In this document: positions 7,077-37,841 of the stretch, in pieces
Layout of the letters: each line of letters begins with the position of its first letter
Position numbering within the stretch: the first letter of the stretch is position 1
Assembly (NCBI GenBank): GCA_018398765.1
Contig: JAHBMJ010001036.1
Span: 1-37,841, forward strand
DNA length: 37,841 nucleotides
Origin: Chromera velia
Lineage: Eukaryota > Sar > Chromeraceae
Direction of reading: 5' to 3'
Notes under the pieces: generated by a model
Told to the model about the DNA's origin: nothing
The model's input: the letters and a program-made list of their open reading frames with translations, nothing else
Database searches by the model: none
Translations under genes and position numbers: made by a program

Positions 7077-7088
7077 TGCAATGCGGAG

Positions 7089-18545: not shown

Positions 18546-18636
18546 AAAAGGGGGTCGCGTCATCTTTGCACTCTTCTGCTCAAAGGAGAAACCGACCGCA
18601 ACGGGGCTCTCTCCCAGAAGCGTAACGACATCGTCA

Positions 18637-20362
18637 TCATCGACCAAGCCATGCTTGACAGCAATTAATGACAGGGTCAATGTGGAGGTGATCAGTCATA
18701 GCATGTGAGGTTTTTTCACTTGCGTCTTCCCACTCGTGTTTTTTGACATAGTCGGGGGCAGAAAACATGCTAGCAATCACGTTCAGCAGAGAACTTGACG
18801 TGAGAACAACAAGCAGCGAAAAGCCAAACTTTTGCAGGTGGCGTCCTATGGTTGGGAGCTCTTTCAGGAACTAAAAAAGCTCGGTTACTGCTGCTGCTTT
18901 TGGAGGGAGCAAAGAGGGGTCAACTTGTGTCTTGAGCGACGCAACAACGTCAGCAATTCACCTCCCATTGTTTTTGGGCGTCTCCGGGAGAACGTCAGTG
19001 CAGCTATATACTCCTCCTCCTCCTTCTTCTTCTTCTTCGTGCTCAAACCTCCTGTTACGACCGCTGTCGGGGGGTCTCTGTAATCGGAACAAGTTTGTCT
19101 TCTTGCGTGTACGCAGGTTCCAAGTTGAAGGCGTCTGGAACGTTCTTCTGCTGGATTTCTTCATTTTTGAGAGGCTGAACTCTGGTCGGTGCATTGCGGG
19201 GCTCGTCGTGAGAAAAAGTGGACGCCCGGGTCACGATACAATAGTTAGACTCAGAAGAATCCCTCTCGCCAGCAGCCATGATATCTCCAATAGAGCGATC
19301 ATCAACCCAGAAGTGGGAGGTGATGAAACAGTAGAAGTAGAGCTTGGCGACGGCAGAAGAGAGACTAGAACTAACATACGCCATGGAATGATCCTCATTT
19401 TGAGCATGGAAACTGCGTCCCATCCTGCGTGGATTGCGCAGAGCAGTAAGCAGTAAGCCGTATAAGCTTACAGCAGTCCTCTCTTCGCTCAAAAAACATG
19501 GACTCCTGCTGCCGCCTGCACGTTTGCAAGCACGTCTGCAGGAGGGGGCGCCTCAAACTCTCTCTCCGCCCTCTCCACCCAGTCCCCGAATCCTTCTAGC
19601 TCCCTCCGCACACGAGCGACACATTCCCCGAACAGTCACATTCTTTACTTGTACTTCCAACCAGGAGTGGTTCTTATTATCTCTCCAATCATTGTACTGC
19701 AGGGTGGAATGAAAAACATCTGCTCGTCCTCACTTCATTTGAACTTACCGGCGTCATTTTTCCATGCAGGTTCATCGAAGTCTGTACTCGCCATATATCT
19801 CTCTTCCTCATCGTTTTCAACTACATACTCTAACTCTCCTCTCGTATTCATTTCATCATTTTGCTCTCTCAGAACTACGGTAACTCCTCGGACCTCCTCG
19901 TCTCTTCGTTCATGCTGAAATTGCAGCTGAATATACTCCCACCCTCAACTCCCTCTTCATTCTGCTCTTCTTCTCGGCCTGTCCATCTTCATATACCTTC
20001 GTCTGATGCCGCATATACATCTGTGAGCTCATCAATGTATACATGACACCGGAAAGAAATGCACTGGATCATACGTACCTTGCGTTTCATGTCTTGACCA
20101 GCACCAGTGTCCGACATCTTGGGCGCCTTCAGCTTGGAACCTGCGTACACGCAAGAAGACAAACTGAAACCAGACGATAGCCGTGGATCAAGGAGACAAC
20201 GTCAACCATAGTGAAAAGCCAAAGACTGAGTTCCAGTCCAACAGAGATGGTTAAGGCCTTCAGCTTTGGTTCAACGGAGACCGTAACGTTTAGGCGACTT
20301 GCGTAACCGAACGAATCACCGCAGTGATCAGCTGAACGAGCGTCTCCCACTCCTACATCCAC
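18637..20362 (-). CDS. Multi-exon gene fragment, membrane-protein-like (minus strand)
   Basis: Several exon-like blocks on the minus strand have good splice sites. 20362-20170 encodes a hydrophobic stretch (ALTISVGLELSLWLFTMVDV). 20140-20079 is a 62-nt exon after tgcgtgtacgcag, read as SKLKAPKMSDTGAGQDMKRK, ending at AAG|GTACGTATG. 19926-19749 is a 178-nt acidic exon after tatattcag (including DEEVRGVTVVLREQNDE) that ends at G|GTAAGTTC. 19490-19078 contains AKLYFYCFITSHFWVDDRS. 18870-18637 starts after an excellent acceptor (gcttttttag) and reads FLKELPTIGRHLQKFGFSLL, then a hydrophobic VVLTSSSLLNVIASMF, up to a TGA. I could not phase all blocks into one mRNA, so they may belong to more than one gene. 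Two or three hydrophobic segments suggest an integral membrane protein. No family recognised. Confidence 0.45.
19092..19133 (+). repeat. 42-bp inverted repeat, copy 1
   Basis: Plus-strand sequence agtttgtcttcttgcgtgta continuing to gttccaagttgaaggcg. It matches the reverse complement of 20124-20165 at 41 of 42 positions. Confidence 0.9.
20124..20165 (-). repeat. 42-bp inverted repeat, copy 2, covering a 3' splice site
   Basis: On the minus strand this copy contains the end of an intron (tgcgtgtacgcag) and the first codons of the 62-nt exon 20140-20079. The single mismatch to copy 1 changes one codon (aac versus agc when read on the opposite strand). Confidence 0.9.
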
Positions 20363-20859
20363 TCCTCTAGAGGAACAGATGCTACGGATCTGCGGTTGAA
20401 TCTGCGTTGTGACTCCGGACGTGTTCTATGAGTGCAATTCCATCAGGGACTCGACTTGGTCACAAAAACTGAAGGAAACCAGATTGTGGTTAGACAGAAG
20501 TTCTACATCTCGCCCAACCACAATCTGGCATGATGAGACGGACCTCAACTGTAGAGAAATGAATTGCGTTGGTGTGTGAGTCCTTGGTTTCCCAACCCCG
20601 CTATGCCCCGTTTCGCCTGACGACCTGGGGAGTTTTCATCGCACTCCTGAACCTGAAACGTACACAAAGTTGTACGCTTTTCTGATCTGGCACTGTCCCT
20701 TCTCGAGGAGGGCACGGACGTGGGACCTGATCCGGTCATGCGGGATTCGAAGAATCCTTCGAATTCTCGCCGGCACGTCCTCATGAGAAATGCGCATACG
20801 GTTTCTGCGCATCACGGGCCGGTGGTCCTGGTAAATGAGGTTCTGGAAGGGAAATCATA
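20363..20859. other. Region with no confident gene
   Basis: A minus-strand frame at 20545-20784 is open and weakly protein-like, but I found no convincing splice sites to connect it. Nothing else is recognised. Confidence 0.35.
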
Positions 20860-22064
20860 TGTGAAATTTGGCTCTGCAGGGGACTTTCGTTTATCATTAT
20901 AAAGTTTTCGACACATTCTTCAATAATGTGTGGAAGAAATTCAGCGACGATCCGTTTGACGAACAGATCATTCAGATATTGGTACTTATATTGCATAGTA
21001 CAACGAAAGAAGGCTTGTGCTAGCTTGTGCATATACGTAAACGATCGCTTACCTCGGCTTTTGCCTCTCTGTAGCCCAATCGCTCCTGTAAGTTCATGCC
21101 GTCTGTGCTACCCGCTTCACTTTTGGGCATCGTTGACTGGTGATGGACTGCTCGACTGGTCTGAGGGAAGGACTGCTCGACTGGTCTGAGGGAAGGACTG
21201 CTCGACTGCCAGGTCTGAGAGAAGGACTGCTCGACTGCCAGGTCTGAGGGAAGGACTACTGGACTGCTGGTAGACTGCTGGTGAGATCTGATGGTGTGAG
21301 GCAATGATTCAGGGAATCTGTACGTGCGAGAGACTTCCAGCTCTGAGGGGAAAGGGGCTTCTGTTTCCATTCTGTGAGAGACCATATGCGGAGCGAATGA
21401 TTTGGGGGAAAACTTAAAAAGCGAATTATTTGGGAAACTTGAGAGCTTCTATATACAACCACTTGCTTGCTTCATCTGGCCCGCACATGCATGTGTATCA
21501 TGATGTAGATGGATACATATTATGCATGTCCGCATGCAGGGTGGAGGGCAAGAGGATACAATGATGTATGCACACACCAGTGCGCATCAGGTGACCTGTC
21601 GTTACAGAACATGGCTTGAAAACTCATGTGGGAAAGATGCACAGAGCTTCTGTCCGGTCACGTCTCTTGAACACCGTGAATCAGGAGGGGTCTCACGAGG
21701 AAAAGCAGCCCTGCGGGAGGGCACAGATTTTGTCGTTCCTTCTGCCCAAACACGCCAGCTGCCGAAGAGACAAAGCCGCCGACACGCACAGTTCTACCGT
21801 CATGCAGAACCAACCTGATCGGCCCATTGCAACAGCTGTCCATGCATGGAGCTTCACCCTCTGGCAGTGCTCCCCCCCATCCTTTGCTGGGCCACTCACA
21901 CAGTGGTCCCATTCGTAAGCACCTCCACGTAGCTCCAGTCGAAATCCCACACTTTGACGCGCTTGGCACTCTCGAGCCCGAGCACCTCCGCCATCTTCAT
22001 GTACCACCGCTTGAGGAGCGGGTGCCTGATGACGACTCCGTACATCCGCAGCAATCTCTGTCTC
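20860..22064 (-). CDS. Exon-like blocks of a minus-strand gene of unknown function
   Basis: Block 1 (22064-21923) follows the acceptor gtcgggcag and reads RLLRMYGVVIRHPLLKRWYM and on to KVWDFDWSYVE, ending at GGAG|GTGCTTACG. Block 2 (about 21032-20860) encodes an amphipathic helical stretch with FFRCTMQYKYQYLNDLFVKR followed by IVAEFLPHIIEECVENF. Between them, 21890-21690 has two competing open frames and I cannot choose. The blocks lie just upstream, on the same strand, of the membrane-protein-like exons at 18.6-20.4 kb and could be the 5' part of that gene. No domain is recognised. Evidence is protein-like composition plus splice signals only. Confidence 0.38.
21145..21270. repeat. 25/29-bp minisatellite
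   Basis: Four to five units of 'ggactgctcgactg(cca)ggtctgag(g/a)gaa' in tandem. Early units are 25 bp; later ones gain four bases (gcca) and become 29 bp. The array trails off into 'ggactactggactgctgg'. Confidence 0.88.
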
Positions 22065-22562
22065 CTGCCCGACTCCTTCACTCCCCCCTCTCTCGAAGAT
22101 TCACGAGGATTTGACACAAGAGAAAATCTATTGGACCTTAAGCGTCCTCTGGCCTACCACCTGCCCCGTTTCCCTCCCTCCTCCTGCCAATTTTGCGGAT
22201 ACTAATGTGACTCAAGGAACCGATTCACTCACAGTTTGACTACATTGATTCTCAAAACATGAGAAGGCACGGGCACGATCAGACTGAGTGCCACTTGGCG
22301 TCTTTCTCCTCCAGTGAGCTCACAGGTATACACACACTTTACCACTGCAGTCTTCCTGGACAGTAAGCAGAGCTGAGCAGTTGACAATCCAGTTCACAGG
22401 TCAGAGCGGCAGCTGTACCTCGGGAAGGCGGAATGTCAATGAAAACGGTGTGGGCGCCCTCGTCGGGATGTTTCTCACCTCATGGACGGAGTTTTCTGGT
22501 TGGTGGGCAGCGCCCCCAAGTTCTAAGAGGGCAGTGGTATACACCAGAGAAGGAAGATCATA
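22065..22562. other. Non-coding or unresolved stretch
   Basis: No frame is convincing. It may contain the promoter and 5' untranslated regions of divergent genes (minus-strand block ending at 22064, plus-strand ATG at 22563). Confidence 0.35.
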
Positions 22563-23789
22563 ATGGCAAAATCGATTCTCTGTACGGCGATGACTTCTTT
22601 TTGGCAGCAGATTCAAGCTGCATGGGAGAAGAAGTACAAGATGAGGTATGGGTTCACACCTACCGATCCCAAACTGTTTGCAGAGGCTCCGCGGGAGCTC
22701 CAGAGAAGGGAACTTGCACCGGATGTCGCGACATGGGAGGCCCCAGTTCGCCCAAGATACCGTCAAACGGCATGTTCAACGCACACGGGAAATGCTTGAT
22801 TCCATCCCGCGCCGCGCCCCGACCAAGAAGCTTTCGTCCTTTGCCTCCTGTAGTTCAACCAGAAAGAAAATCTCTGTCGCCAGAAAACAGGACGAAAAGG
22901 TGCGACCCCCCATTTCCCTCGTGCTCTTAGATGACTCTAGAGTCCCCCTCACAGCAGGAAGTGGGGGCAGAAGCTATAGCCATGCAGAGCGGGTGTTGAA
23001 TTTCTGCAGAGCCGGTGCAGCGCTAGTCGGGGGGGCAGAGCCACCGCTGGATGGGGCAACGGATGATGCTGCGAGAAGAGGGATGCTCCAGCCCACCATC
23101 AGGTCTCATAGTTTCTTCGCAAGGGCTTCGAGGCTTTTTTTTTTTGTCTTTGCTGGGGTTGAAAATACTTTGAACACGGATTTCTTGCTTGCAGGCTCAG
23201 GTGAATGCCAGACCGGGCGGACAGCCGGTTGCTTCCCGCGAGCGCGCGATCAGGACTACGTGGAAGGTGTGAGGTTTCTACATCGTTGCTTCAAACATAA
23301 CGTCAGTCCCTCTCAGCAGTCAAAAATGTAGGCTCAAAGTAGGCTTAGCAAAATGCTGCTATGGAGTCATGATGCATGATTTCCTTTCAAAATCTCGGAA
23401 GAGGGCTCACCAGAGCAAGAGCAAGGGCTCACCAGAGCATGGGTGCAAAACTTAGGCCCAGGAAACCCGTCAACCTGTCGGATCCAACTGTATTCCTCCT
23501 GGTTCAGATAGTCAGTCAGTTTGGACTTCAGTCGGTTCCTTTGGCATTCGTGGCAATGGCCCCATGCTTTTGGAGAGCCAAACGAGCCTGCTCTCTGCCT
23601 CTTGTCACGAGGCTGTCCTCCTGAGGCCTCTTGCAACTTCCTTTGCGGAAGAGAGGGTCCCTGGGCGCGGCCACATCCGACGAGGACTTCGCGGGCCTTG
23701 AACCCTGCAAGTACGCCTTCAAGCTGGTGGAGGGAGACGCTGGGGGGGGGAAATTGAAGTCGCTGCTCTCGCGGATCGATGCATCGTAA
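22563..23789 (+). CDS. Plus-strand multi-exon gene of unknown function (incomplete model)
   Basis: Three coding blocks are visible. The first begins MAKSILCTAMTSFWQQIQAA at 22563 and continues through FTPTDPKLFAEAPRELQRRE to about 22760. The second (23195-23266, 72 nt) is a clean phase-0 exon between acceptor ttgcttgcag and donor GGAAG|GTGTGAGG, encoding AQVNARPGGQPVASRERAIR and four more residues. The third (from about 23650) reads GSLGAATSDEDFAGLEPCKY, AFKLVEGDAGGGKLKSLLSR and IDAS to TAA at 23787-23789. I could not fix the splice junctions between blocks, and a competing frame exists around 22.56-22.63 kb. The gene converges on the minus-strand gene ending at 24005. No family recognised. 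Confidence 0.42.
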
Positions 23790-24004: not shown

Positions 24005-26132
24005 TCATCCTGTTACTCTGTCCGCCTCCTTCTGAGAGAGCACCAGAGCATCCTCGTCCTTGACGGACTTTGAGACGGCCTCAGGTAGGACGGAGAGGAG
24101 AGGACCTCTGCAAGCACGCATCCGTCATCTTCAAGGGCGCATGGGGAAAGTCCTGATGAAGAAGTTGACGCAGTCGGCGTCCGCCTCTGAGGGGAAAAGA
24201 AGTACGAGTTGGCAAATCGAAACCGCAAGAGAAGCGATGACGAGGTCGTGCGAGAGATGCGTTGAGGAAGCGCTGGTAAAGGGAGGGGAAGATGAAGATC
24301 TGCACAGCTCCCTGGAGCCTCAGAGTCTCTGGAGAGACATCGAGTCTCTCTTCTCTCCGCATCCCCATGGAGAGAGCGTTGCAGAGACACGATCCAAGCA
24401 CTTTGTGGCAGAAGACCACCTCCGACGGACTGTCCAGGGTAGTCTGCAAACAGAATTAGGTGAAACATTGCAGAAACCAAAGAGACAAGGGAGTGACGGG
24501 GTCGTTCCATCGGCCAACAACATTGACAGGCCGGTCAATCGATGATCCGTAAGAAAGTCGAGAGGGATCAAAAGGGGCTCTGTACAGAGGCTTCCATGCA
24601 TGATGACCGACACCGCAAGAACGGGGGAGGCGGCCTCATCGCCAAGATGCATGAGGCTATTATCGGAAACCCCCGCATATGTTTTGGAGAAAGAAATCAG
24701 CCCTCAACTTCGACGACCAGATAGACCTCGCAGCGCCCGAAAGCGCTAGTGCCACAGGATGTCTATATAGCCGTAGCGCAGCTGGCTCGTCAGGGCATGA
24801 AAACCTTCATAGTGTGCAGTAAAATACAAAAGCACACCATATACTTGTTTTTGCCTGAGCATACAAAGAGCCATCGATGCTTTTTGCCTGAGCATTCTTT
24901 GGAGCTAGTTGCTAAATGCACTGAAGCTGCAGGCGTGAGTGCACGGGACGCTTTTTGACAAGTTTGTCCGGCTGTAGAGCCTCTGTCAACATGTCTTCCA
25001 ACACATATTCGGCAATACAGTTCTCGAACAGCCTCACTTCCTCCATCGAGTATTCTATGTTCTCTCCTTGATCATTGGGGAAACGGACCCCGTCTTCGTA
25101 TAGTTGAAGAATGTCAAAAATGAAGAAAGGGGAAGACTACGAAGACTGTTCCGACTTGTCCTTCTGTCCCCTCTCCCTGATCTCTCCTGCTTCTTCTATT
25201 GAGACTCCGAAGGCGTCTGTCTCTGCAGGGCCCTCTACTCCACATTTATGGCAGGGTCTCCCCATCTTTCTACAAAGCCTTCGTGCCCATCTCAATATAG
25301 GACCTCTCTCTATCGACATTTTCTTAACAGGCACGCAGTGAGTAAGCATGCGCAAGCATGCTCTCAGTCTGACGGCTACAGAAGTCCTCCTCCTCGAATT
25401 GCGTCTCCTCACCCAAGATTTAGCCAGGAAGCCATTTCGTCAGTTGCGCGAGTGTTGTACCCGGCGTCTGCATGCGGACCCGGGGCGTAGCTCAAAAAGT
25501 ACTGGACCTCATCGGTGAAGCCCTTTTGCATCACAGTATCGATATAGAGAGCAAAACAGGACTTCATGCTTCTTCACATTTTTGAACCCTCACGAAGCTT
25601 CGTCAAAAGTCGCTGAGTTGTGAGAAATTAATCCGATCTACCGAAGAATCGCCGCAGCGCAAAATCTCTCTGTTGCCCTCCCAAAGAGCGACAACCTCAG
25701 CCTTTGAAAGTAAGGCACCACACTGGAACAAACGGCCGCGAACGCCCCGCAGGAGTTTCTGCGTGGGGGAAAGAAAACAAAAAGGAAAGAAAGAGGAGCA
25801 TCATGATAGAGGGAAGAAATTTAAACAAAAGGAACGGCGGACACGATTTGTGCATTCATTCAATTTGCCAAGCAGTCTGTATATACCCACCTTCTTCGTC
25901 CTCTGCAATTTTTTCATGGCCTTCCTCGCGTTACCATCGCCAACAAACGCCTTCGTTGTCTCTGAGGCCTGTGAGAGAAGAAAGAGGCGATCTGTCTGGT
26001 ATATGGCCAAAAGCCATCGATGTCCACAGGGTGTGCACCACACCTCGCGCATTGACTTCTGACATACATCGCTGTTGCTGCTGATGCACTGGGGGGGCCT
26101 AATGCGGTTCCTGTTCGTTTTCTTCTTTCTCC
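24005..26132 (-). CDS. Minus-strand multi-exon gene of unknown function
   Basis: Exon-like blocks, 5' to 3': (1) 26132-25935, 198 nt, phase 0 on both sides (acceptor cctactgcag, donor ATG|GTAACG), with a CxxC motif in MYVRSQCARCGAHPVDIDGF. (2) 25567-25413, starting at an ATG (MKSCFALYIDTVMQKGF), then DEVQYFLSYAPGPHADAG, ending GG|GTGAGG in phase 2. (3) About 25320-25140, GPILRWARRLCRKMGRPCHK and an acidic tail; a TAG at 25137-25139 ends this frame. (4) About 25105-24930, RFPNDQGENIEYSMEEVRLF then ENCIAEYVLEDMLTEALQ. (5) Terminal exon 24107-24005 after gtgcttgcag, GPLLSVLPEAVSKSVKDEDA to TGA. Blocks 3 and 4 share one frame, so the TAG is either in an unrecognised intron or a lesion. Block 1 may belong to a different gene. 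No family recognised. Confidence 0.45.
24130..24545 (+). other. Open frame of uncertain status overlapping a minus-strand intron
   Basis: A plus-strand frame (starting MGKVLMKKLTQSASASEG) is open and protein-like to TGA at 24543-24545, but a minus-strand frame over the same bases is equally open. Minus-strand splice signals flank it at 24107. I cannot decide between a plus-strand exon, a minus-strand exon or an intron. Confidence 0.25.
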
Positions 26133-26437
26133 CTGCAGTAGGCCACAAATATACAGAGGGGAGGCTGGGGATCTGGCAGTGTCCATGCCCACAAATAGTG
26201 TTTTCCGAAGGTGATCGTGGGAATGGGAGGAAGGGGGGGGGGTTCAGGTACTTGTACCTGCTGCTCTTGGAGATCCTCATTCTGTTGTTTCTTTTCCTCC
26301 TCATCGCAGTAGGCGAGAAATTATTGTAGGCGGGAAGCCTTGATTTTCTCCTCCTTTTGCATGGTAAGGTAGGGCGGGGACACCTTTCTTGGTAACCATC
26401 TTCGCGACTCGTTCCCACCTCCCGCGCGTCCTACAGC

Positions 26438-26509
26438 AGGTGAGACCAGGGGAGCCGGCCTGCCCAAGACTAATAATCAAAAGGTCACGGGTTCGATCCC
26501 AGGTCACCT
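26438..26509 (+). other. tRNA-like sequence (Ile-like relic or SINE head)
   Basis: 72 nt long, as in a tRNA. Six of seven acceptor pairs form (aggtgag with gtcacct). The anticodon-loop sequence ctaataa would place an AAT (Ile) anticodon. The B-box ggttcgatccc is perfect. The anticodon and T stems contain mismatches and the A-box is poor, so this is more likely a tRNA-derived relic or the head of a SINE than a working gene. Confidence 0.42.
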
Positions 26510-26769
26510 CTCTTTTCCCAAATACATAAAAGGTACCAAAACTACAAAATCGCGTCCTGTAGCGGTGTCAAAACAATAATGGTGGCCTGTATCACAAAAT
26601 GATGGACTGTATCATAAACCGAAAGGCTATCGAAAGACTCGGAATTCAGAAGTCTTTCATAAGGACTCAAACTTCACGGAAAGGAGCCAACCGAAAAGTA
26701 GCACCCGGATCGACATTGAAGAAGCTTCTCGGAAGTGAACCTTTGAGATAAACCAAGCTTATACCTCTT

Positions 26770-27096
26770 AAGTAGTTTCCAACTGGCAAGTAGTTTCCAA
26801 TAAGGACCTACTGACCAGTCACCTCTTGGAAGTAGTTTCCACTTATACTTATAACAACCTTTAAGAAGACAATCTAAGAAGTTTAGACATCCGGTGTCTC
26901 TACTAAGGACTCCTAACCTCTTGTTTCGCTTCTGGAAGGCTCTTTTAGCCTCGTAGCAAGTCGTTTCCAAAAGGCTCTTCACAAGTAGTTTCCTTTGGAA
27001 ACTACTTCGGAGTAGGGACCTCTTTGCAAGTAGTTTCCTTTGGAAACGACTTTGGAACGCCAACCTTTTGCAAGTAGTTTCCTTTGGAAACTACTT
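26770..27096. repeat. Array of 25-bp palindromes and half-sites
   Basis: Three copies of the near-perfect palindrome aagtagtttcctttggaaactactt start at 26983, 27028 and 27072, about 45 bp apart; the middle copy has one change in its right arm. Four isolated half-sites (aagt(a/c)gtttcc) lie at 26770, 26788, 26830 and 26958. Each full copy would fold into an 11-bp stem with a 3-nt loop. The minus-strand frame across it (WKLL repeats) is a by-product of the repeat. Confidence 0.85.
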
Positions 27097-27175
27097 CGAA
27101 CCGTGAACCTCTATGACCGTCGACTCTCCTCTGGACACTAACTAAAGACCGAACAGTGGTATAAGGCTAAGTTGT

Positions 27176-28018
27176 CTAAGTCTGAATATATACATACATA
27201 CCTCTGACTTGCTGTCTAGCCAATCGAGCTAGGAGTAGGCCAGAACACGTGGTGACAGGACGGCCGTACATATCGACAGGGGTGGAGCTCATTCCAGAGT
27301 AAGAGAACTGACGCTGGCTCATGTGCGGAGGGCCGTGGCCGCCGTATATGGAGACGCTAGGAAAGGTATCAGGTGGAAGGAGAGGCCTCCAATACCCCCC
27401 TGCTGCTGCTGCTGCCGACATAGGGGGCTGATTCTGCCTCCGGGCTGCTTGCCAGAGCCTAACCTCCTCTTTCTCCCTCTCTTCCTCCTGCTTCCTCGCG
27501 GCCTCTCTTTCTTTTTCCTCTTTTTTTCTAGCCGCCTCCTCCTCTTCCCTTTTCCTCTTCCTCTCTTCCTCCTCTCTCCGTTTGTTCTCTCTGAACTGCC
27601 GAAGAACAGCTCTCTCTTCCTCATCCTCTGCTTCCACGTCAACAACACGGGGGCCACTGGGGGGCACAATTTCCAAGTTAATGACAGGCACGCGTCCAGG
27701 CATAATTTCCGATCTGTTGAGAGGAGACGGGTCGCGACTCCTTGCCTCCAAGCCCCCCTCCCCCTGAGATGAAGCGTCTCTGAAGCTCGAGGCCTGAGAG
27801 CCCCCGTAGCCAGGGGGCTACATGTGCCCCTCTCTGTTCATGTCTGCCTGTCGATGGTTCAGCGTCTCTTCTTGGACCTCCGGTGCCCTCCCTTTTCCTT
27901 TCCCTCGAACCTTTGAGGCGTCCTTCTCCAAAATTTCTGCCTCCTTCAGTTTTCTCAGTTCCCCCCCCCCCCTGTAGGGTGTAGAATTATTTTTTAGAAT
28001 AAAAACAAAGATTTGCAT
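27176..28018 (-). CDS. Minus-strand coiled-coil / disordered protein, interrupted by one in-frame TAG
   Basis: Two frame-compatible segments, 28018-27821 and 27817-27176, are separated only by TAG at 27818-27820. The upstream one includes KLKEAEILEKDASKVRGKGK. The downstream one starts PPGYGGSQASSFRDASSQGE and includes NLEIVPPSGPRVVDVEAEDE. A long Arg/Glu/Lys coiled coil follows (about 27600-27455, KRREEEERKRKREEEEAARK pattern), then a Met/Pro/Tyr-rich tail. It ends in TAG or TAA near 27176. The start at 28018 is not convincing because the first residues come from AT-rich DNA and a poly-C tract. The TAG may lie in a small intron (a possible acceptor gcacatgtag sits exactly there) or be a nonsense mutation. 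Composition is biased, so a real gene is likely but not certain. Confidence 0.42.
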
Positions 28019-28059
28019 CCATTACAAAGTGGGTCTTTCGGGGCGTGCGCTTAGGGTCT

Positions 28060-28165
28060 CTCCATCCCCGCCGCAGGCGGCGGGGGGGGGTCGCTGAGGG
28101 GGGGGGGCCACCCCCCCCAGGCTGAAGGGGGTCTGGGGGGGGCGCGGAGCCCCCCCCAGCAGAAA
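28060..28165. repeat. Extreme G/C-run palindromic segment
   Basis: Runs of 7-10 G alternate with runs of 7-8 C (ggcggggggggg, ccacccccccc, tggggggggcgcgg, agccccccccag) and pair with each other in several registers. The surrounding DNA is AT-rich, so the block stands out. Confidence 0.8.
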
Positions 28166-28422
28166 ATTTTGGCATTTTCTGCCTTGGAAGTGCCATTTTT
28201 TAAGGTAAAAAAATGTCCGTCAAACACGATTGCCTTGGATGAAAAAGTGATGCAAAAATGTGGATGCTCAGACCCAACACATGACTCTAAGTTTTGCGCC
28301 TGGCCTTCTCCATGCATGAATGGCACAAAAATCTGATGCGCGCGCGCAGAGCAGTCACGCGCCAAACGCGCGAAGCCAGGAAAATATATTGATTTTTTTT
28401 CGAAAAAAACCACTACGAATTA

Positions 28423-31400
28423 ATGTTCAGGGGTTCCGTCTACGCGTATAAAGGGGGCCAGGAGACCGCCATTGGGTTTCAGATGTCTTCACGACTGGCC
28501 AAGCTCTTCCACGAGATGACGAAACGGCCCGCATGGTACGTATACTCTTCCCTGCACGTACGCTTTCTCTCTGCCGATGATTACAGTGTTGGGCATTCAC
28601 TGTATGAGGCTTTGCCGATTCCTTTCTTCCCATTTTCGTACTGAAGATTGTTTCCTTGGCCTGCCATCCCTATCCATCACTCTGTTTCAATGTCTTTCCT
28701 CCATTTGCTGCTCACATCCGCCCGGCCTGCCGTCCTTCTGTTTGTTTCATTCCGGCCAGCTTTGATCACACAGAGCTTTCTCTCCTTTGTTCTGACTGCA
28801 GGATTACGGACAAGACTGTAAAGGGACTCAAAAACAATGTCTGCGTCCAGATCTTGCGGAAGATATTCTACACAGCCGATGACAAACAACTGCGGGCAGC
28901 ACTGGGTATCGTGGGGGGAATTTCACTCTGGCGGTCAGTCGTTCTTCCTTGCACGTACGCTTTCTCTCTGCCGATGATTACAGTGTTGGGCATTCACTGT
29001 ATGAGGCTTTGCCCATTCCTTTCTTCCCATTTTCGTACTGAAGATTGTTTCCTTGGCCTGCCATCCCTATCCATCACTCTGTTTCAATGTCTTTCCTCCA
29101 TTTGCTGCTCACATCCGCCCGGCCTGCCGTCCTTCTGTTTGTTTCATTCCGGCCAGCTTTGATCACACAGAGCTTTCTCTCCTTTGTTCTGACTGCAGGA
29201 TTACGGACAAGACTGTAAAGGGACTCAAAAACAATGTCTGCGTCCAGATCTTGCGGAAGATATTCTACACAGCCGATGACAAACAACTGCGGGCAGCACT
29301 GGGTATCGTGGGGGGAATTTCACTCTGGCGGTCAGTCGTTCTTCCTTGCACGTACGCTTTCTCTCTGCCGATGATTACAGTGTTGGGCATTCACTGTATG
29401 AGGCTTTGCCCATTCCTTTCTTCCCATTTTCGTACTGAAGATTGTTTCCTTGGCCTGCCATCCCTATCCATCACTCTGTTTCAATGTCTTTCCTCCATTT
29501 GCTGCTCACATCCGCCCGGCCTGCCGTCCTTCTGTTTGTTTCATTCCGGCCAGCTTTGATCACACAGAGCTTTCTCTCCTTTGTTCTGACTGCAGGATTA
29601 CGGACAAGACTGTAAAGGGACTCAAAAACAATGTCTGCGTCCAGATCTTGCGGAAGATATTCTACACAGCCGATGACAAACAACTGCGGGCAGCACTGGG
29701 TATCGTGGGGGGAATTTCACTCTGGCGGTCAGTCGTTCTTCCTTGCACGTACGCTTTCTCTCTGCCGATGATTACAGTGTTGGGCATTCACTGTATGAGG
29801 CTTTGCCCATTCCTTTCTTCCCATTTTCGTACTGAAGATTGTTTCCTTGGCCTGCCATCCCTATCCATCACTCTGTTTCAATGTCTTTCCTCCATTTGCT
29901 GCTCACATCCGCCCGGCCTGCCGTCCTTCTGTTTGTTTCATTCCGGCCAGCTTTGATCACACAGAGCTTTCTCTCCTTTGTTCTGACTGCAGGATTACGG
30001 ACAAGACTGTAAAGGGACTCAAAAACAATGTCTGCGTCCAGATCTTGCGGAAGATATTCTACACAGCCGATGACAAACAACTGCGGGCAGCACTGGGTAT
30101 CGTGGGGGGAATTTCACTCTGGCGGTCAGTCGTTCTTCCTTGCACGTACGCTTTCTCTCTGCCGATGATTACAGTGTTGGGCATTCACTGTATGAGGCTT
30201 TGCCCATTCCTTTCTTCCCATTTTCGTACTGAAGATTGTTTCCTTGGCCTGCCATCCCTATCCATCACTCTGTTTCAATGTCTTTCCTCCATTTGCTGCT
30301 CACATCCGCCCGGCCTGCCGTCCTTCTGTTTGTTTCATTCCGGCCAGCTTTGATCACACAGAGCTTTCTCTCCTTTGTTCTGACTGCAGGATTACGGACA
30401 AGACTGTAAAGGGACTCAAAAACAATGTCTGCGTCCAGATCTTGCGGAAGATATTCTACACAGCCGATGACAAACAACTGCGGGCAGCACTGGGTATCGT
30501 GGGGGGAATTTCACTCTGGCGGTCAGTCGTTCTTCCTTGCACGTACGCTTTCTCTCTGCCGATGATTACAGTGTTGGGCATTCACTGTATGAGGCTTTGC
30601 CCATTCCTTTCTTCCCATTCTCCTCCTAGAAATTCGGTCTTCCTCCCTGCCTGATTGCCTTCTGAATTTCGGTCTTCCTCCCTGCCTGATTGCCTTTTGA
30701 ATTTCAGTCTTCCTCCCTAATTGAATGCCTTCTCAATTTCGGTCTTCCTCCCTGCTTTTCTTGCTGTTTGAATACTGCTTGCAGTCATCCAAAATGGCTT
30801 GTGTCAGCGGATTTCTGGCACTGCTTTCTTGACGCGTTGGGGGAGGAGATCCGCTCCCTGAAGAGAGACCACGAGCGTCTTCTCTTGCTCTATGCGACTC
30901 TGAAGGCAAATGCCTTGAAGGCGAATGGGGAGGTTTATGCAGAGAGTTCGATTGAGCAGTTGGCAGGGTTTTTGAGGAAGAAAGAGATCTTTGGGGGGGT
31001 CGCGCATCCCAGCTATCTCCATCATACGTTGCAGCTGGTGGAGGAAATGGAACGAAAGGAGTCCCAGTCCCCCCCCCTCCCCCCTCTGACCATCGAGGTT
31101 GTTCCTGGTCTGATGCACTCCTGCAAAAGCACGGACGGCTTNAGATTGTTTCCTTGGCCTGCCATCCCTATCCATCACTCTGTTTCAATGTCTTTCCTCC
31201 ATTTGCTGCTCACATCCGCCCGGCCTGCCGTCCTTCTGTTTGTTTCATTCCGGCCAGCTTTGATCACACAGAGCTTTCTCTCCTTTGTTCTGACTGCAGG
31301 ATTACGGACAAGACTGTAAAGGGACTCAAAAACAATGTCTGCGTCCAGATCTTGCGGAAGATATTCTACACAGCCGATGACAAACAACTGCGGGCAGCAC

Positions 31401-34400
31401 TGGGTATCGTGGGGGGAATTTCACTCTGGCGGTCAGTCGTTCTTCCTTGCACGTACGCTTTCTCTCTGCCGATGATTACAGTGTTGGGCATTCACTGTAT
31501 GAGGCTTTGCCCATTCCTTTCTTCCCATTTTCGTACTGAAGATTGTTTCCTTGGCCTGCCATCCCTATCCATCACTCTGTTTCAATGTCTTTCCTCCATT
31601 TGCTGCTCACATCCGCCCGGCCTGCCGTCCTTCTGTTTGTTTCATTCCGGCCAGCTTTGATCACACAGAGCTTTCTCTCCTTTGTTCTGACTGCAGGATT
31701 ACGGACAAGACTGTAAAGGGACTCAAAAACAATGTCTGCGTCCAGATCTTGCGGAAGATATTCTACACAGCCGATGACAAACAACTGCGGGCAGCACTGG
31801 GTATCGTGGGGGGAATTTCACTCTGGCGGTCAGTCGTTCTTCCTTGCACGTACGCTTTCTCTCTGCCGATGATTACAGTGTTGGGCATTCACTGTATGAG
31901 GCTTTGCCCATTCCTTTCTTCCCATTTTCGTACTGAAGATTGTTTCCTTGGCCTGCCATCCCTATCCATCACTCTGTTTCAATGTCTTTCCTCCATTTGC
32001 TGCTCACATCCGCCCGGCCTGCCGTCCTTCTGTTTGTTTCATTCCGGCCAGCTTTGATCACACAGAGCTTTCTCTCCTTTGTTCTGACTGCAGGATTACG
32101 GACAAGACTGTAAAGGGACTCAAAAACAATCTCTGCGTCCAGATCTTGCGGAAGATATTCTACACAGCCGATGACAAACAACTGCGGGCAGCACTGGGTA
32201 TCGTGGGGGGAATTTCACTCTGGCGGTCAGTCGTTCTTCCTTGCACGTACGCTTTCTCTCTGCCGATGATTACAGTGTTGGGCATTCACTGTATGAGGCT
32301 TTGCCCATTCCTTTCTTCCCATTCTCCTCCTAGAAATTCGGTCTTCCTCCCTGCCTGATTGCCTTCTGAATTTCGGTCTTCCTCCCTGCCTGATTGCCTT
32401 CTGAAAGTCGGTCTTCCTCCCTGCCTGATTGCCTTCTGAATTTCGGTCTTCCTCCCTGCTTGAATGCCTTCTGAATTTCGGTCTTCCTCCCTGCTTTTCT
32501 TGCTGTTTGAATACTGCTTGCAGTCATCCAAAATGGCTTGTGTCAGCGGATTTCTGGCACTGCTTTCTTGACGCGTTGGGGGAGGAGATCCGCTCCCTGA
32601 AGAGAGACCACGAGCGTCTTCTCTTGCTCTATGCGACTCTGAAGGCAAATGCCTTGAAGGCGAATGGGGAGGTTTATGCAGAGAGTTCGATTGAGCAGTT
32701 GGCAGGGTTTTTGAGGAAGAAAGAGATCTTTGGGGGGGTCGCGCATCCCAGCTATCTCCATCATACGTTGCAGCTGGTGGAGGAAATGGAACGAAAGGAG
32801 TCCCAGTCCCCCCCCCTCCCCCCTCTGACCATCGAGGTTGTTCCTGGTCTGATGCACTCCTGCAAAAGCACGGACGGCTTCGCCGTGAATGCAGCGGCAA
32901 GGATGTCAGACGAGGGAGTAGATTTTGATGAGCTCGCACTGAATTTGTCGAATGTTGTGCACGAAGCGATCGACGTAGAAAAAGTGAAAGAAAAGCTTTC
33001 GACGGAGAAGGGGTTGAGGATAGTATCCAGGGCTGCAACCATGGCAGCGATGGTGGACAGGTGGGCACAGCTGTGCCATGACGCTGTAGACCCAGCGGCA
33101 CAGAATGTGCTGGCGTTGGCGTCGCGCTTTCGTCGACTGGCGTATTGTCGGGAAGGCTATTCAGTAGAGAGGAGCCTCGACCTCTCTATGTCTGCCTTAC
33201 TGCTCACCGGAATGCTGCACCTCCTTCTCCCCGTCTCAGTGAGTGGGATTTCACACGTGCTGAACATTCTTGTTTTAGCAAAATTCTACAGAGAAGAAAA
33301 GATCCCCCTTTTCATGTTGGAAGAAGGCAGAATGGAGCAGCTGTTTTCTATGTGTGTCAAACTGCGAACGAGAGGAAATAGAATGAACGACCTTTTTGAC
33401 AAAGAGGTTGCAAAAGAATTTTACAAAGAGTTGGAGGAGATGGTTCCTGACTATATTGAGCGGTCAGGGGCCAACGGAGATTGCGCAGGTATCCCTCCTG
33501 CTTTTCAGAGCCCAGGTGAACCTCTCTGTGTGTATGATATGCACAGCTGCCTCCTGCATCCTTCAACGGCACACTGGGTTGGAAAAGGGGAAAGAGGAAC
33601 AGAGAGAAAGCAAATCAAGCCAGAGGACAAGAGCAATTTGTGTGCTGCACTCCGGGGTCGGATTGCCCAGGCTGAATCACTGTTTTTGTCGGAAGGGAAG
33701 GGGGAAGATATCCAGTTCCTTGTAGGAGGAGAGGAGGGCTCCAACCCGATGACTTTTGTGAGCGAATTGTGTCCAGGGAACCCATACGAGAAGGTTTATG
33801 CAATTCGTTTTGCTTGCGCTCCGACCAGGCAGGCTGACGCTCCCGTTCTGCACATTCCCCTTTGTGCATGCGAAGCAAATCGGTCAAAAGGGCCAAAGCG
33901 TCTGCCGTATGAGAAAGTGCCCCGTTATCCGATCTCCTCTCTCTTTCTCAGGCAGAGTCTTTCCGTTCGTTCACAGCAGCAGAAGTACACAGCAGGTTCC
34001 CATCCCACCCCCCGTCTTGGCGACATGTGATTGAGCGGAAGGCTCTCAGCTTTGTTGGTGAAGGGGGCAAGAGTAAGAGTGCAACTGCCAGTGAAAAAGC
34101 AGCTTTGCAGGAGGTGGGGGGGACTGTGACAGCAGACACGAATTCCCTCTTGTGCACCACGGAAGACATGAAGAGAGAATTGGAGCGACGTAGAGACGAA
34201 CAGGCAGTTGAGGAAGAAGAAGAAGAGATGGAGGAAGAGGAGAGAGGAGGGAGAAAAAAGAACAGGTGGTGGCAGCATTTCAATGAAGAAAAGCATGCGC
34301 ATTTCGTGCACAAGCTCCCATCTATATGCCAAAAGAGAAGAATGGCAACAGAGAAGAATGCCTATGCCATCGTTCTGCTGAGAAACAAGTTGTTTACAAA

Positions 34401-34980
34401 GCTGTCAAGAAACGGGCTTGTGTCCCGCTCGACTCCCCTGGATTTGATTTTCAAGTGCGACGAAGAGGGGTGGAAACCAATGGCAGCAAAGAGAGGGGAC
34501 TGCCCTATTTACGGGTGGTTTGGGCAGAAAGAGAGACGCTCCAACTGGAGTCGGGAAAAATTGTACGTTGTAGGGTTTCGGTTGGAGACAGATGTCGTGG
34601 CAGTGTTTGAAGACACTGACGCCCTCTTCTTCAGCCCAAATCAGCAAGAGATTGGAAGCCGACCGTCTGATCGTCAATTTACTCTAGAAGGGGTAGTTGC
34701 CATGGCCCGTACATTTCGAGAGCACGCACAAAAACACCCCCAAAATGAAAGAGTCCAGTGGGCTTTTCAACAGCTCGGGTCGTGGCTGAAAGAGCCTCCT
34801 GCAAAAGAAGATCTTTCTTTGTGGTCCCTCGCACCTTTGCGGGGTGTGCGGGAAGTGTTTCCAGACTTCGACATCAAAAAGTGGCCAAGAGAAGCCGAAG
34901 ACAGTGGCGAGGTCTTCTTTTCCCAAATTTCTGCAGAAGAAAGGGCGCAAATGAAAAAAGAGTTCATTCCTCGTGATTGA
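28423..34980 (+). CDS. Gene A: multi-exon protein with a tandemly repeated 44-residue exon
   Basis: Exon 1 (28423-28535) starts MFRGSVYAYKGGQETAIGFQ and ends in phase 2 at GCATG|GTACGT. The next exon (132 nt, read ITDKTVKGLKNNVCVQILRK ... GISLWR) is present at 28802-28933, 29199-29330, 29596-29727, 29993-30124 and 30390-30521, and after the N at 31300-31431, 31697-31828 and 32094-32225. The last copy has one Val-to-Leu change. All boundaries are phase 2, so any number of copies keeps frame. The following exon starts at 32524 (acceptor tgcttgcag, joining R-HPKWLVSADFWHCFLDALG). It runs to an intron ending at 33951 (ctctctttctcag), with a possible donor GAAG|GTTTATG at 33794. The last exon (33952-34980) contains an acidic coiled coil (VEEEEEEMEEEERGG) and ends in TGA. 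A truncated second copy of the 32524 exon lies at 30785-31141. No known domain recognised; no signal peptide or membrane segment is evident. Confidence 0.68.
28536..30784 (+). repeat. 397-bp tandem repeat: exon plus introner-type intron, first block
   Basis: Five exon copies are separated by essentially identical 265-nt introns. The core phrase ctgccgatgattacagtgtt recurs at 28571, 28968, 29365, 29762, 30159 and 30556, exactly 397 bp apart. The final intron (30522-30784) switches after the core from the standard tail to 35-bp minisatellite units (about 30627-30760). Confidence 0.95.
30785..31141 (+). pseudogene. Truncated duplicate of gene A exon (HPKW exon)
   Basis: Nearly identical to 32524-32880. 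It stops abruptly at the N in 31142, mid-exon, after CKSTDG. The intron before it differs from the later copy in the number and sequence of its 35-mers, so the two are not simply the same sequence entered twice. Confidence 0.8.
31142..31142. other. Ambiguous base N at a sequence junction
   Basis: The only N in the window. To the left is exon sequence ending acggctt; to the right the sequence resumes in the middle of a gene A intron (agattgtttcc). It marks a contig join or an unresolved duplication breakpoint. Confidence 0.9.
31143..32523 (+). repeat. 397-bp exon-intron tandem repeat, second block
   Basis: Three further exon copies (31300, 31697, 32094), with core phrases at 31466, 31863 and 32260. 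The last intron (32226-32523) again carries 35-bp units (about 32335-32495), here about five instead of three or four. Confidence 0.95.
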
Positions 34981-35659
34981 AATCCTTGCTTGAGACACTT
35001 CTCGCAGTGGATCACTTTGTAAATATACTGTGACTTGATTGATTGATTGATTGCAATATTGATTTATTGATTGATAGGTTTTTGAATAATAAATAATAGC
35101 AATTAAAATAAATGTTGCTCAAAATAAATGAATTCCACAATTAGTTATCAAATAATTTTATTTTCTATATATATTTTAGGGTGAATGTTCATGCTGTACG
35201 TAAACAGTTATGTGTCTTATATGTCTTATTTCAAATATGTTAGCTTACAGTTGATATTATAGAATTTTTAAAAAAAAAGTATATTAAATTTTAATTAATT
35301 CCTACATATTAATTGCTTACCAAAAAAAAAATGAAAATGATTTTATCAAAAAATCAGGATCTCTACATATACATTGACGAGCCTAATTGTACTATTTATA
35401 AATAACATGCATCATTTACTAGGCTTTCTATGCTTTCCTAGGCCTCTTCTACAAAGTTTTAACATTATTTAGACATAGTTTAACATTGTTTTAACCCTTT
35501 TTGATGTGTTTGAATGTTGAGTTCCCTGACCATTGCGTAGAGTGCCTTCAATCCAAGACAAGCTGACAGAGAGCGGCAAGGAAGAAGCACACAGGTCGGA
35601 ACCTCATGCAATTCAAACACACACACACCCCTTCCCTTAATTCCCCTTCCCTCCCTCAA
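34981..35659. other. AT-rich intergenic spacer between convergent genes A and B
   Basis: Long A/T runs and a gattgattgattgattg repeat at about 35037-35075. No coding frame. It separates the 3' ends of gene A and gene B and presumably contains both polyadenylation regions. I cannot place the signals. Confidence 0.6.
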
Positions 35660-35747
35660 AGCAAAATCGCTCCCTCACCCTCCTCCTCTTCTGCCTGCGA
35701 CTCCTCCTGCGCTTGGACCCCGGACATCGTGTTCAGAGTGCTGCCCA

Positions 35748-37653
35748 TCAGAGAGGAGAAGGCTGACGCTGACCCCTGTGCGGCAGCCGCCCTCTGTGAG
35801 ACTGTGACTCCGGCAAGGGAGCCAGCTCAGGCGCGCCGGCCTGAGGGAGGAGCGGACTAAGGACGGTGCCAAGAAAAGATGCAACTGTTTTTGTGCCTTC
35901 GGGATTTTTAGCCATCCAATCCATGCTAGCGGGAGTCAGCAGAGGGGACAGAATCGAGGCCAAGGGGGAGGCCTGCGGGAGGAAGAGTGGGGAGGCCTCC
36001 TCCCCTGCTGGGACGCCCTTTGAAGATGACGAAGGCTGCTCGGAAGAAGAAGAAGAAGACGCGAATGAGGGAGGGGCTGGCTGTTGCTTCTGCTTCTTTA
36101 TTTTCGATACCTCCTCCTCCATGACTGCCTTCCGCTTCTCCCCCAACCTCTCGTTGTTCATGTTCTCGGAGAACTTGGAATATTCCGCGACGAAGCCAGA
36201 GAAAAAGAGGTACCTGTCGTACGCTTGGAACAAAAGGACTGTCTTCCACTCTTCCTCTGTTTCGAATCCTTCTCTCTGCAGATAAACAGAGGACCATTGG
36301 CAGCAGATGCACGAACATATGTGAAGAGATGTCTGCGTAGACAGAGAAAACGGATGTAGGCCCGTAGCGGAGTAAATCAACCAACCAGGAATTGGGGGTC
36401 CTCCCAGATTCGCTCGAGCCACTCAGCATGGTCTGTCTCCAACAGAGAAACTTTGGGCACAGTTCTCGAAATCTGCATTCAAACAGGGAGCAAGGAAGAC
36501 CGACTTTCAGAGGGCATTCAGGCAGGGAGGAAGACCGACTTTCAGAGGGCATTCAGGCAGGGAGGAAGACCGAAATTCAGAAGCCAATCAGGCAGGGAGG
36601 AAGACCGACTTTCAGAAGGCAATCAGGCAGGGAGGAAGACCGAATTTCTAAGAGGAGAATGGGAAGAAAGGAATGGGCAAAGCCTCATACAGTGAATGCC
36701 CAACACTGTAATCATCGGCAGAGAGAAAGCGATCCTTCATTCACCCACCTGCCCGTCTGCAGTCTGCGTCACCTTTTCAGTGTACAGGTTCCCATTCCAT
36801 GTGAGTCCGAACACTTTGGTCGATTTGTCGTTGAGCTTGCCCCTCACCGGGTCCACCTTTGAGGCGACGTGCTTGAGGTCTCCCGAAACATGGCCGAAGC
36901 CGTACAGGAAATTGAAGTTGCTGTCGAAAGTCTGCAAGGGAGACTCTGCCTCATCGGGATGGAGCCTGGAATCGCCAAAGATAAGATCCCCGAACACAGC
37001 GAAGATGGCTGATCTGCTGAGATCACCTTTCCTCTCCTCCCTCTGCTGTTTTGAAGTTGCCGTCTTCTGCCAGATGGCCTCTCTAAGTGCGTTTTGCCTC
37101 ATACGGAAAAACTTGGCCCCCGCCTCCTGCACCACAAACGTATCCATTCAAGCAGGGAGGAAGCGGGAGGAAGTCTGAAATTCGGAAGGCATTCAAGCAG
37201 GCAGGAAGGCCGAAGTTCTGGTGGGAAATGGAAAGAAAGGGATGGGCAAAGCCTCATACAGTGAATGCCCAACACTGTAATCATCGGCAGACTTAGCACC
37301 GAAGGACGCACCGTGAAGAAGTTGATGCGCGCTTGTCCTTCATCCTGCTCCCTCGAGGGGACGTCCAGGCCCTGAGTGACCACTGCAACAATCTGTTGGA
37401 ACCGCCAGAGCATCAGAATCATAAACGAGTAGAGGAAGTAGAATGAAAGGATGCGAACTGTCCTCTTAGCCTCGGGAGCGTTCGGGCCTGGCGCACACAA
37501 AAAAACGCTCATGACGCAATGGAGAAGCTTGCCTTTTCCCTGCGAGGCAGCGCCTTTCTTTATTTTTTCTGCTCCAGTCTTTTTCTCCGCTTTTTCTTCT
37601 CTCTCTCCAAACTGCGAGGCGATTCCCGTAAAAGCATTTGCAAAGGCAGCCAT
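35748..37653 (-). CDS. Gene B: four-exon gene, one predicted membrane segment, function unknown
   Basis: Exon 1 is 37653-37312 (114 codons, MAAFANAFTGIASQFGEREE...), exon 2 is 37126-36749 (126 codons), exon 3 is 36472-36386 (29 codons) and exon 4 is 36275-35748 (176 codons including TGA). All junctions are phase 0 with GT-AG sites (ACG|GTGCGT, CAG|GTGGGT, CTG|GTTGGT), giving 444 residues. Residues ~65-92 (VRILSFYFLYSFMILMLWRF...) are one strong hydrophobic segment after a Lys-rich N-terminus. Exon 3 reads ISRTVPKVSLLETDHAEWLE; exon 4 has ETEEEWKTVLLFQAYDRYLF, a basic KIKKQKQQ patch and a Ser-rich linker. Near 35840 another frame becomes protein-like (LAGVTVSQRAAAAQG...) and ends in TGA at about 35658. 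The C-terminus may therefore be misread because of a small intron or indel. Introns 1 and 2 are introner-like; intron 3 is not. No family recognised. Confidence 0.66.
36473..36748 (-). repeat. Introner-like intron 2 of gene B
   Basis: 276-nt intron. From about 27 nt after the donor it matches the gene A intron core (ctgccgatgattacagtgtt ... ttcctttcttcccatt), then 'ctcctcttagaaattcgg', then about four to five 35-bp units, then the acceptor gtttgaatgcag. It matches gene A introns 30522-30784 and 32226-32523 in layout, but on the opposite chromosome strand. Confidence 0.9.
37127..37311 (-). repeat. Introner-like intron 1 of gene B
   Basis: 185-nt intron. The shared core starts 21 nt after the donor (GTGCGTCC...). 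It is followed by two to three diverged 35-mer units, including ttcggccttcctgcctgc, the variant typical of the 0.56-2.7 kb array, and the acceptor gtttgtggtgcag. It thus links both variants of the minisatellite family. Confidence 0.9.
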
Positions 37654-37841
37654 GGCTGCCTAGCTGCCAGGGCTGCCCAGCTGTCAAGACACTCGAACAA
37701 GAAGGCAGAATTAAATCAATCGATCGATCAGTCAATCAATGCGCACTGACAAGGAGAGAAGTTATCGATATTGAACGATCAACCTATAAGACAAGTCTGT
37801 ACCAGGTGCATGGGTGCGCCCCTGGGTACTCGGGTACACAA
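37654..37841. other. Upstream flank of gene B
   Basis: Probable promoter and 5' untranslated region of gene B. It contains an aatcaatcgatcgatcagtc-type simple repeat near 37713-37740. No other gene is seen before the window ends. Confidence 0.4.

Follow-up and report, generated by a model that had tools for sequence, protein, structure and literature searches.

How introns of closely similar sequence come to lie at unrelated positions of two unrelated genes is the question raised by a 37,841-nt stretch of Chromera velia DNA (assembly GCA_018398765.1, contig JAHBMJ010001036.1, positions 1 to 37,841; hereafter the window), which we followed up in the genome of C. velia CCMP2878. A preliminary description of this DNA had noted that introns of a plus-strand gene (gene A) and a minus-strand gene (gene B) share a core of about 65 bp, and had proposed them as introner elements. 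The reading we favor, at a probability of about 0.5, is that they are a small family of introns, found so far only within one two-gene transposon of low copy number, and that the intron body was copied inside that element. Transposon-confined, introner-like intron family is the best label. The features of the element and its two genes in the window are:

28436..37841, no strand: window part of the repeated two-gene transposon, running to the contig end (blocks on contigs C23, C583, C911, and C1907)
28483..28535, plus strand: gene A exon 1 (reading frame, GT donor)
28536..28801, plus strand: intron A1, core followed by a unique 167-nt tail without 35-bp units (tail matches only A1-type introns)
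28546..30619, plus strand: 397-bp tandem array of intron and exon 2, 5.2 copies (Tandem Repeats Finder, TRF)
28802..28933, plus strand: gene A exon 2, 44 codons, repeated in the array (reading frame)
30522..30784, plus strand: intron A2, first assembled copy, core and 35-bp units (unit and core comparison)
31142, no strand: single N at which the array restarts (possible assembly duplicate)
31143..32323, plus strand: 397-bp array, second assembled stretch (TRF)
32226..32523, plus strand: intron A2, second assembled copy, with one B2-type unit (unit and core comparison)
32524..~33900, plus strand: gene A exon 3 (open reading frame, ORF, and frame; 3' limit approximate, donor not located)
~33952..34980, plus strand: gene A exon 4 (ORF, homology to the sister gene A'; 5' limit deduced from pyrimidine tract and AG)
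35748..36275, minus strand: gene B exon 4 (ORF, protein A0A0G4GAK7)
36276..36385, minus strand: intron B3, no core (sequence read against A0A0G4GAK7; none of the 11 core matches lies here)
36386..36472, minus strand: gene B exon 3 (junction as in A0A0G4GAK7)
36473..36748, minus strand: intron B2, core and 35-bp units (unit and core comparison)
36749..37126, minus strand: gene B exon 2 (reading frame, A0A0G4GAK7)
37127..37311, minus strand: intron B1, core and 35-bp units (unit and core comparison)
37312..37653, minus strand: gene B exon 1 (reading frame, A0A0G4GAK7)

The first 20 nt of the core occur in 11 exact copies in the window, with 0 expected in 100 shuffles. As had been described, the core begins 21-35 nt downstream of the donor, 35-bp units are present in four assembled introns (at three sites), and the phases deduced from exon lengths differ between the genes (phase 2 for A1 and A2, phase 0 for B1 and B2). 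All four core introns have GT-AG ends and carry the core in the sense of their own gene. The proteins of genes A and B have no meaningful similarity to each other (best E 0.027 over 36 residues), and the view that homologous introns occupy non-homologous positions of two unrelated genes is supported. The counts of nine copies in gene A and two in gene B were correct, but the nine are not independent because they are members of one 397-bp tandem array of intron and exon 2. When 397 nt were cut from each of the nine cores, all six further type-1 units showed 0 or 1 difference from the reference unit in 397 positions, and the two stretches beginning at A2 cores showed 251 and 247 differences. Since the array resumes after the N and both A2 copies are followed by the same first 357 nt of exon 3, the array stretch after 31142 may be an assembly duplicate or one of two near-identical copies; the units differ between the two assembled A2 introns. 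This leaves four independent core-bearing intron sites, A1, A2, B1, and B2.

The public C. velia protein A0A0G4GAK7 (397 aa) equals spliced gene B at 100% from residue 48 on, so that its gene model uses the same three gene B junctions; in a second public C. velia protein, matching gene B at 83%, exon 3 is skipped. The predictions for the C. velia genome took RNA-seq as intron evidence, as stated in the part of PMC4501334 considered here. The cores do not lie mostly outside introns, an outcome that would have spoken against the introner proposal: those of the window fall within gene-model introns and those of the other copies do so by homology. Among 8000 candidates scored in public protein searches, two C. 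velia proteins were retrieved with gene B and no match with gene A, and a profile of B and its sister protein B' found three proteins, all from C. velia, among 7871 candidates. Neither gene had a Pfam match above cut-off or an NCBIfam match, and gene A exon 3 reached a best E of 0.19 against solved structures.

In local alignments of the four introns together with 53-60 nt of flanking exon, the similarity was confined to the introns in all six pairs. The scored alignments start at intron positions 10-35 and end at least 20 nt short of the acceptor. Among A2, B1, and B2 the scored similarity begins at positions 18-34, with 210 nt in common between A2 and B2 and B1 joining from position 21 on; the likeness of A1 to A2 covers only A1 positions 11-130 and A2 positions 10-130. 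Over the first 20 intron nt, 6-9 positions are identical, over the last 20 nt 9-10, and the intron heads resembled shuffles at the 5% level in five of six pairs (25/1000 for A1/A2, 60/1000 for A2/B1). An inverted repeat at the intron ends beyond that of shuffles was found in none of the four introns. Core differences (of ~66 positions) averaged 5.2 between different sites in one copy of the transposon, 5.1 for the same site across copies, and 5.8 when both site and copy differed; 17 of 20 sequences entered this comparison (W.A1b, W.A2b, and the hybrid intron of C911 being dropped, and five further window array copies not entered). Because within-site and between-site distances are alike, the four cores would have been near-identical when the element amplified, bar one or two changes in B1. 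A derivation of the block from the transposon ends was not supported, as three of four scores lay within the largest of 200 shuffles and the remaining orientation (26 versus 24) was taken as chance.

A search of the genome with 77 nt of the core yielded at least 25 matches, all in five copies of the transposon, and a 24-nt core pattern with up to 3 mismatches returned the same 25 places (reversed control, 0); these counts are lower bounds, as diverged relatives may escape. The introner proposal thus stands with regard to similar introns at unrelated sites, three of which (A2, B1, and B2) are intronless in a sister element, but a genome-wide introner family is not supported. All 11 genome matches of the A1 tail lie at A1-type introns. 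Intron A2 is present in all five copies and A1 in four (C583 lacks that end), while B1 and B2 occur in four of the five, supplemented by a B1/B2 hybrid on C911. With up to 2 mismatches allowed, the 35-bp unit matches at least 356 places, including those in the transposon itself. Part of these belong to another repeat family, as locus L045 matches the three further loci of this kind that were compared, and also parts of C23 and C583; no core match was found within that family. Its members (L045-L048, C23:20175-23637, and C583:18122-21620) form a dispersed repeat family with a diverged 35-bp array, which adjoins the transposon on C583. In the window, positions 560-2607 hold long arrays of the intron-type 35-bp unit family, distant from the transposon and without the core.

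Parts of window positions 28436-37841 match C23, C583, C911, and C1907 in blocks that are mostly 90-96% identical. On C911, the repeat at 17237-23712 is bounded by inverted ends of 50 bp that are 88% identical (17237-17286 and 23663-23712), and C23 and C1907 share its right end. Judged from these sequences, the carrier appears to be a low-copy two-gene transposon with inverted ends of about 50 bp, of which five copies were seen. The end sequence has at least five matches (a lower bound, as the list omits the right ends of C23 and C1907), two of them on the further contigs C1642 and C2900, where the genome-wide core searches found no core. Reading by eye revealed no clear target duplication around the C911 or C23 copies. 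The central part of gene A is missing from all four other copies. Gene B changes relative to the window are largely C to T or G to A (77 of 102 on C23, 73 of 103 on C583, 63 of 84 on C911, and 89 of 113 on C1907), at a rate that peaks at CG on three of these contigs and at CA on C911. The window copy is probably the closest to the common ancestor of the copies. C to T and G to A transitions seem to dominate the decay of the other four, with cytosine methylation as a guess at the cause. Intron B1 on C1907 (15003-15079) contains a 12-bp duplication within the core.

Sites corresponding to three of the four introns were accessible through a diverged sister element. Searching the genome with gene B gave 25 matches, 19 in the five copies and six at 33-36% identity on other contigs, the latter constituting a second repeat family with a sharp left edge. 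On contig C2595 its gene B' is a single frame and single exon of 385 codons (most other listed copies hold stops), accompanied by a diverged gene A' convergent to it. B' aligns to B ungapped at the B1 junction and extends across B2 and B3, where the alignment is poorer. Residues 30-123 of A align contiguously to A' across the A2 site (tblastn E 4.6e-16, 39% identity), where A' reads CGG CAT and A reads CG, intron, T CAT; two stop codons in the aligned stretch mark this A' copy as decayed. Near A residues 123 and 255, A' has two putative introns at positions where A has none. Intron A1 is apparently present in A' and looks old, because A' offers an AG acceptor that matches A1 in phase and lies no more than one codon from where A1 ends. 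Introns A2, B1, and B2 look specific to this transposon lineage, on the basis of one A' copy and the B' family. When the genome was searched with B', the 16 matches consisted of 14 members of the B' family and two sites in the transposon; no third family appeared. A public protein, A0A0G4GWQ5, fuses a gag-like part with B', the reason for considering B' a processed copy inside a retroelement; we set this idea aside, given A' convergent to B' on C2595 and the putative introns of A'. The gag-like part is presumably copia-like, from its look. This fused protein (locus L073, contig C1621) probably reflects a B' element within a retroelement.

The introns have also changed by exchange after the transposon amplified. 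On C911, one intron combines the start of B1 with the end of B2, and gene B exon 2 is gone. One 35-nt unit in the second A2 copy of the window matches a B2 unit at every position; by eye, this B2-type unit appears in none of five other A2 rows and in all five B2 rows, the C911 hybrid included. Unequal exchange between cores of A1 and A2 would produce an array like that of the window. Such cases suggest that the introns recombine with one another, which is a matter separate from the route by which the block first moved.

Our favored explanation builds on such recombination. Before the transposon amplified to five copies, one body, made of the ~66-bp core, 35-bp units, and a related tail, would have come into A2, B1, and B2, its 5' part also occupying the apparently older intron A1. 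Copying of this body would have taken place in DNA, from one intron of the element to another, possibly by ectopic gene conversion or unequal crossing-over aided by the 35-bp repeats, each intron keeping its own donor end. The direction and the molecular route of the first copying are what we infer here, as is whether the three introns were made or overwritten. Copying of the body within the transposon accounts for cores that are nearly identical, donor ends that are not alike, and the confinement to one element, and copying by DNA recombination fits slightly better than strict insertion as an introner. Gene conversion and unequal crossing-over, the agents of concerted evolution, explain identical interiors with different ends, fusion introns, and a tandem exon array. 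Concerted evolution usually works on sequence that is already homologous; some initial event by which genes A and B came to share the block is still required.

Several observations weigh against this explanation. No intermediate of the first copying was found, and as for a donor of the body, neither core nor 35-bp unit is present in C2595:7000-17332, up to 5 substitutions being allowed. Overwriting by itself leaves unexplained why the sister has no intron at A2, B1, or B2. Introns A2, B1, and B2 share sequence near their 3' ends, not their 5' ends: over the last 42 nt before the acceptor CAG they show a weak likeness, with a score reached in 0 of 1000 shuffles in all three pairs, the A1 tail being unlike them. 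It is as if the body had been copied with its own 3' end. At B2, an in-register GCAG run borders the intron; A1, A2, and B1 have two-base runs, so that the check for target duplications found none common to the sites. Border repeats out of register, noted by eye and possibly due to chance, are GTCA at A2 and GGTGC at B1. The likeness of the tails lowers the weight of copying by recombination and raises that of two explanations in which the intron itself multiplies.

According to the first of these, which is a real possibility at less than even odds, core and 35-bp body make up a mobile intron, whose insertion into exons gave rise to A2, B1, and B2; it would have brought its 3' end, taken the donor from the site, and so far spread only inside the transposon. 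The alike tails fit this, as does the intronless state of all three full-block sites in the sister, whose A' is no processed copy because it has introns of its own; families co-opting the donor or both splice sites are described in the excerpt of PMC9860276 used here. However, the similarity starts only at positions 18-34, upstream of which the heads resemble each other no more than shuffles do (5% level). These unshared heads are not missing exon sequence, because the sister proteins align ungapped at A2 and B1. A consistent in-register duplication is lacking, the genome-wide core searches found no copy in host genes, and intron B3, which has no core, is absent from B' too, so that intron turnover is not confined to core introns.

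According to the second, which we hold to be unlikely though worth stating, the family is a proto-introner: an intron gained the ability to multiply inside the transposon and gave rise to introns at three positions in genes A and B, hidden from the selection that acts on host genes, and is seen here ahead of any genome-wide burst. It is improbable that the introns are instead ancestral and were lost from the sister, the shared block being older, homogenized intron sequence. B' is indeed a single exon on C2595, and a single sister family does not polarize gain versus loss; however, A' has at least two putative introns that A lacks and apparently A1 as well, so that the loss would have been selective. 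Far less probable still is a functional RNA or splicing element kept alike in four introns by selection, as its near-identity at four sites and its uniform sense orientation might suggest. Neither Rfam (no match up to E 1 in window positions 26000-37841) nor folding (on a par with shuffles in all four sequences, z 0.04 to 0.94) supported a structured RNA, and the whole introns B1 and B2, core included, diverge from the window by 2.9-11% as compared with 2.2-10.5% for gene B exons and flanks, so that no special constraint is visible. An assembly artefact, to which the N at 31142 and the near-identical repeated arrays might point, is the least credible, as the same introns recur on other contigs with private differences.

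Elsewhere in the window, positions 4554-9806 on the minus strand hold a retroelement with gag, protease, reverse transcriptase, RNase H, integrase zinc-binding, and chromo domains.

Close parallels are already in print. Introner elements, as described in parts of PMC9860276, likewise are similar introns at unrelated sites and often lineage-specific, and there are families that contribute just the 3' splice site, or no splice site at all; their families comprise 5 to over 2,000 copies each, as compared with four sites in one transposon here. Unlike the elements in that text, the present introns do not share their 5' part and have neither a consistent target duplication nor an inverted repeat at their ends beyond that of shuffles. 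The candidate introners of mirusviruses, as described in PMC12768974, are also similar introns of one genome whose likeness stops before the exons, and under the rule given there (at least two such introns in one genome) the present case would qualify. Their carrier is a virus, whereas ours is a small transposon in an algal nuclear genome, with a sister holding three intronless sites. Amoebophrya is, like C. velia, an alveolate with repeated introns; its introners, following the portion of PMC7789003 considered, have inverted repeats, direct border repeats of 3-5 nt, and varied splice sites, in contrast to the GT-AG ends and the absence of inverted repeats beyond shuffles observed here. In the literature searched, introners and Chromera were named together only in work on Amoebophrya.

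Since a genome-wide family is not supported, the weight of this case is moderate. The multiplication of introns has been a question for a long time, and as a rule introner families are noticed once many genes already carry them. In the present case, one small element holds the history and is accompanied by a sister with three intronless sites, which makes gain, overwriting, and later recombination separable. For the transposon itself, the case suggests that repeats within introns can duplicate an exon, as in the array of the window, or delete one, as on C911.

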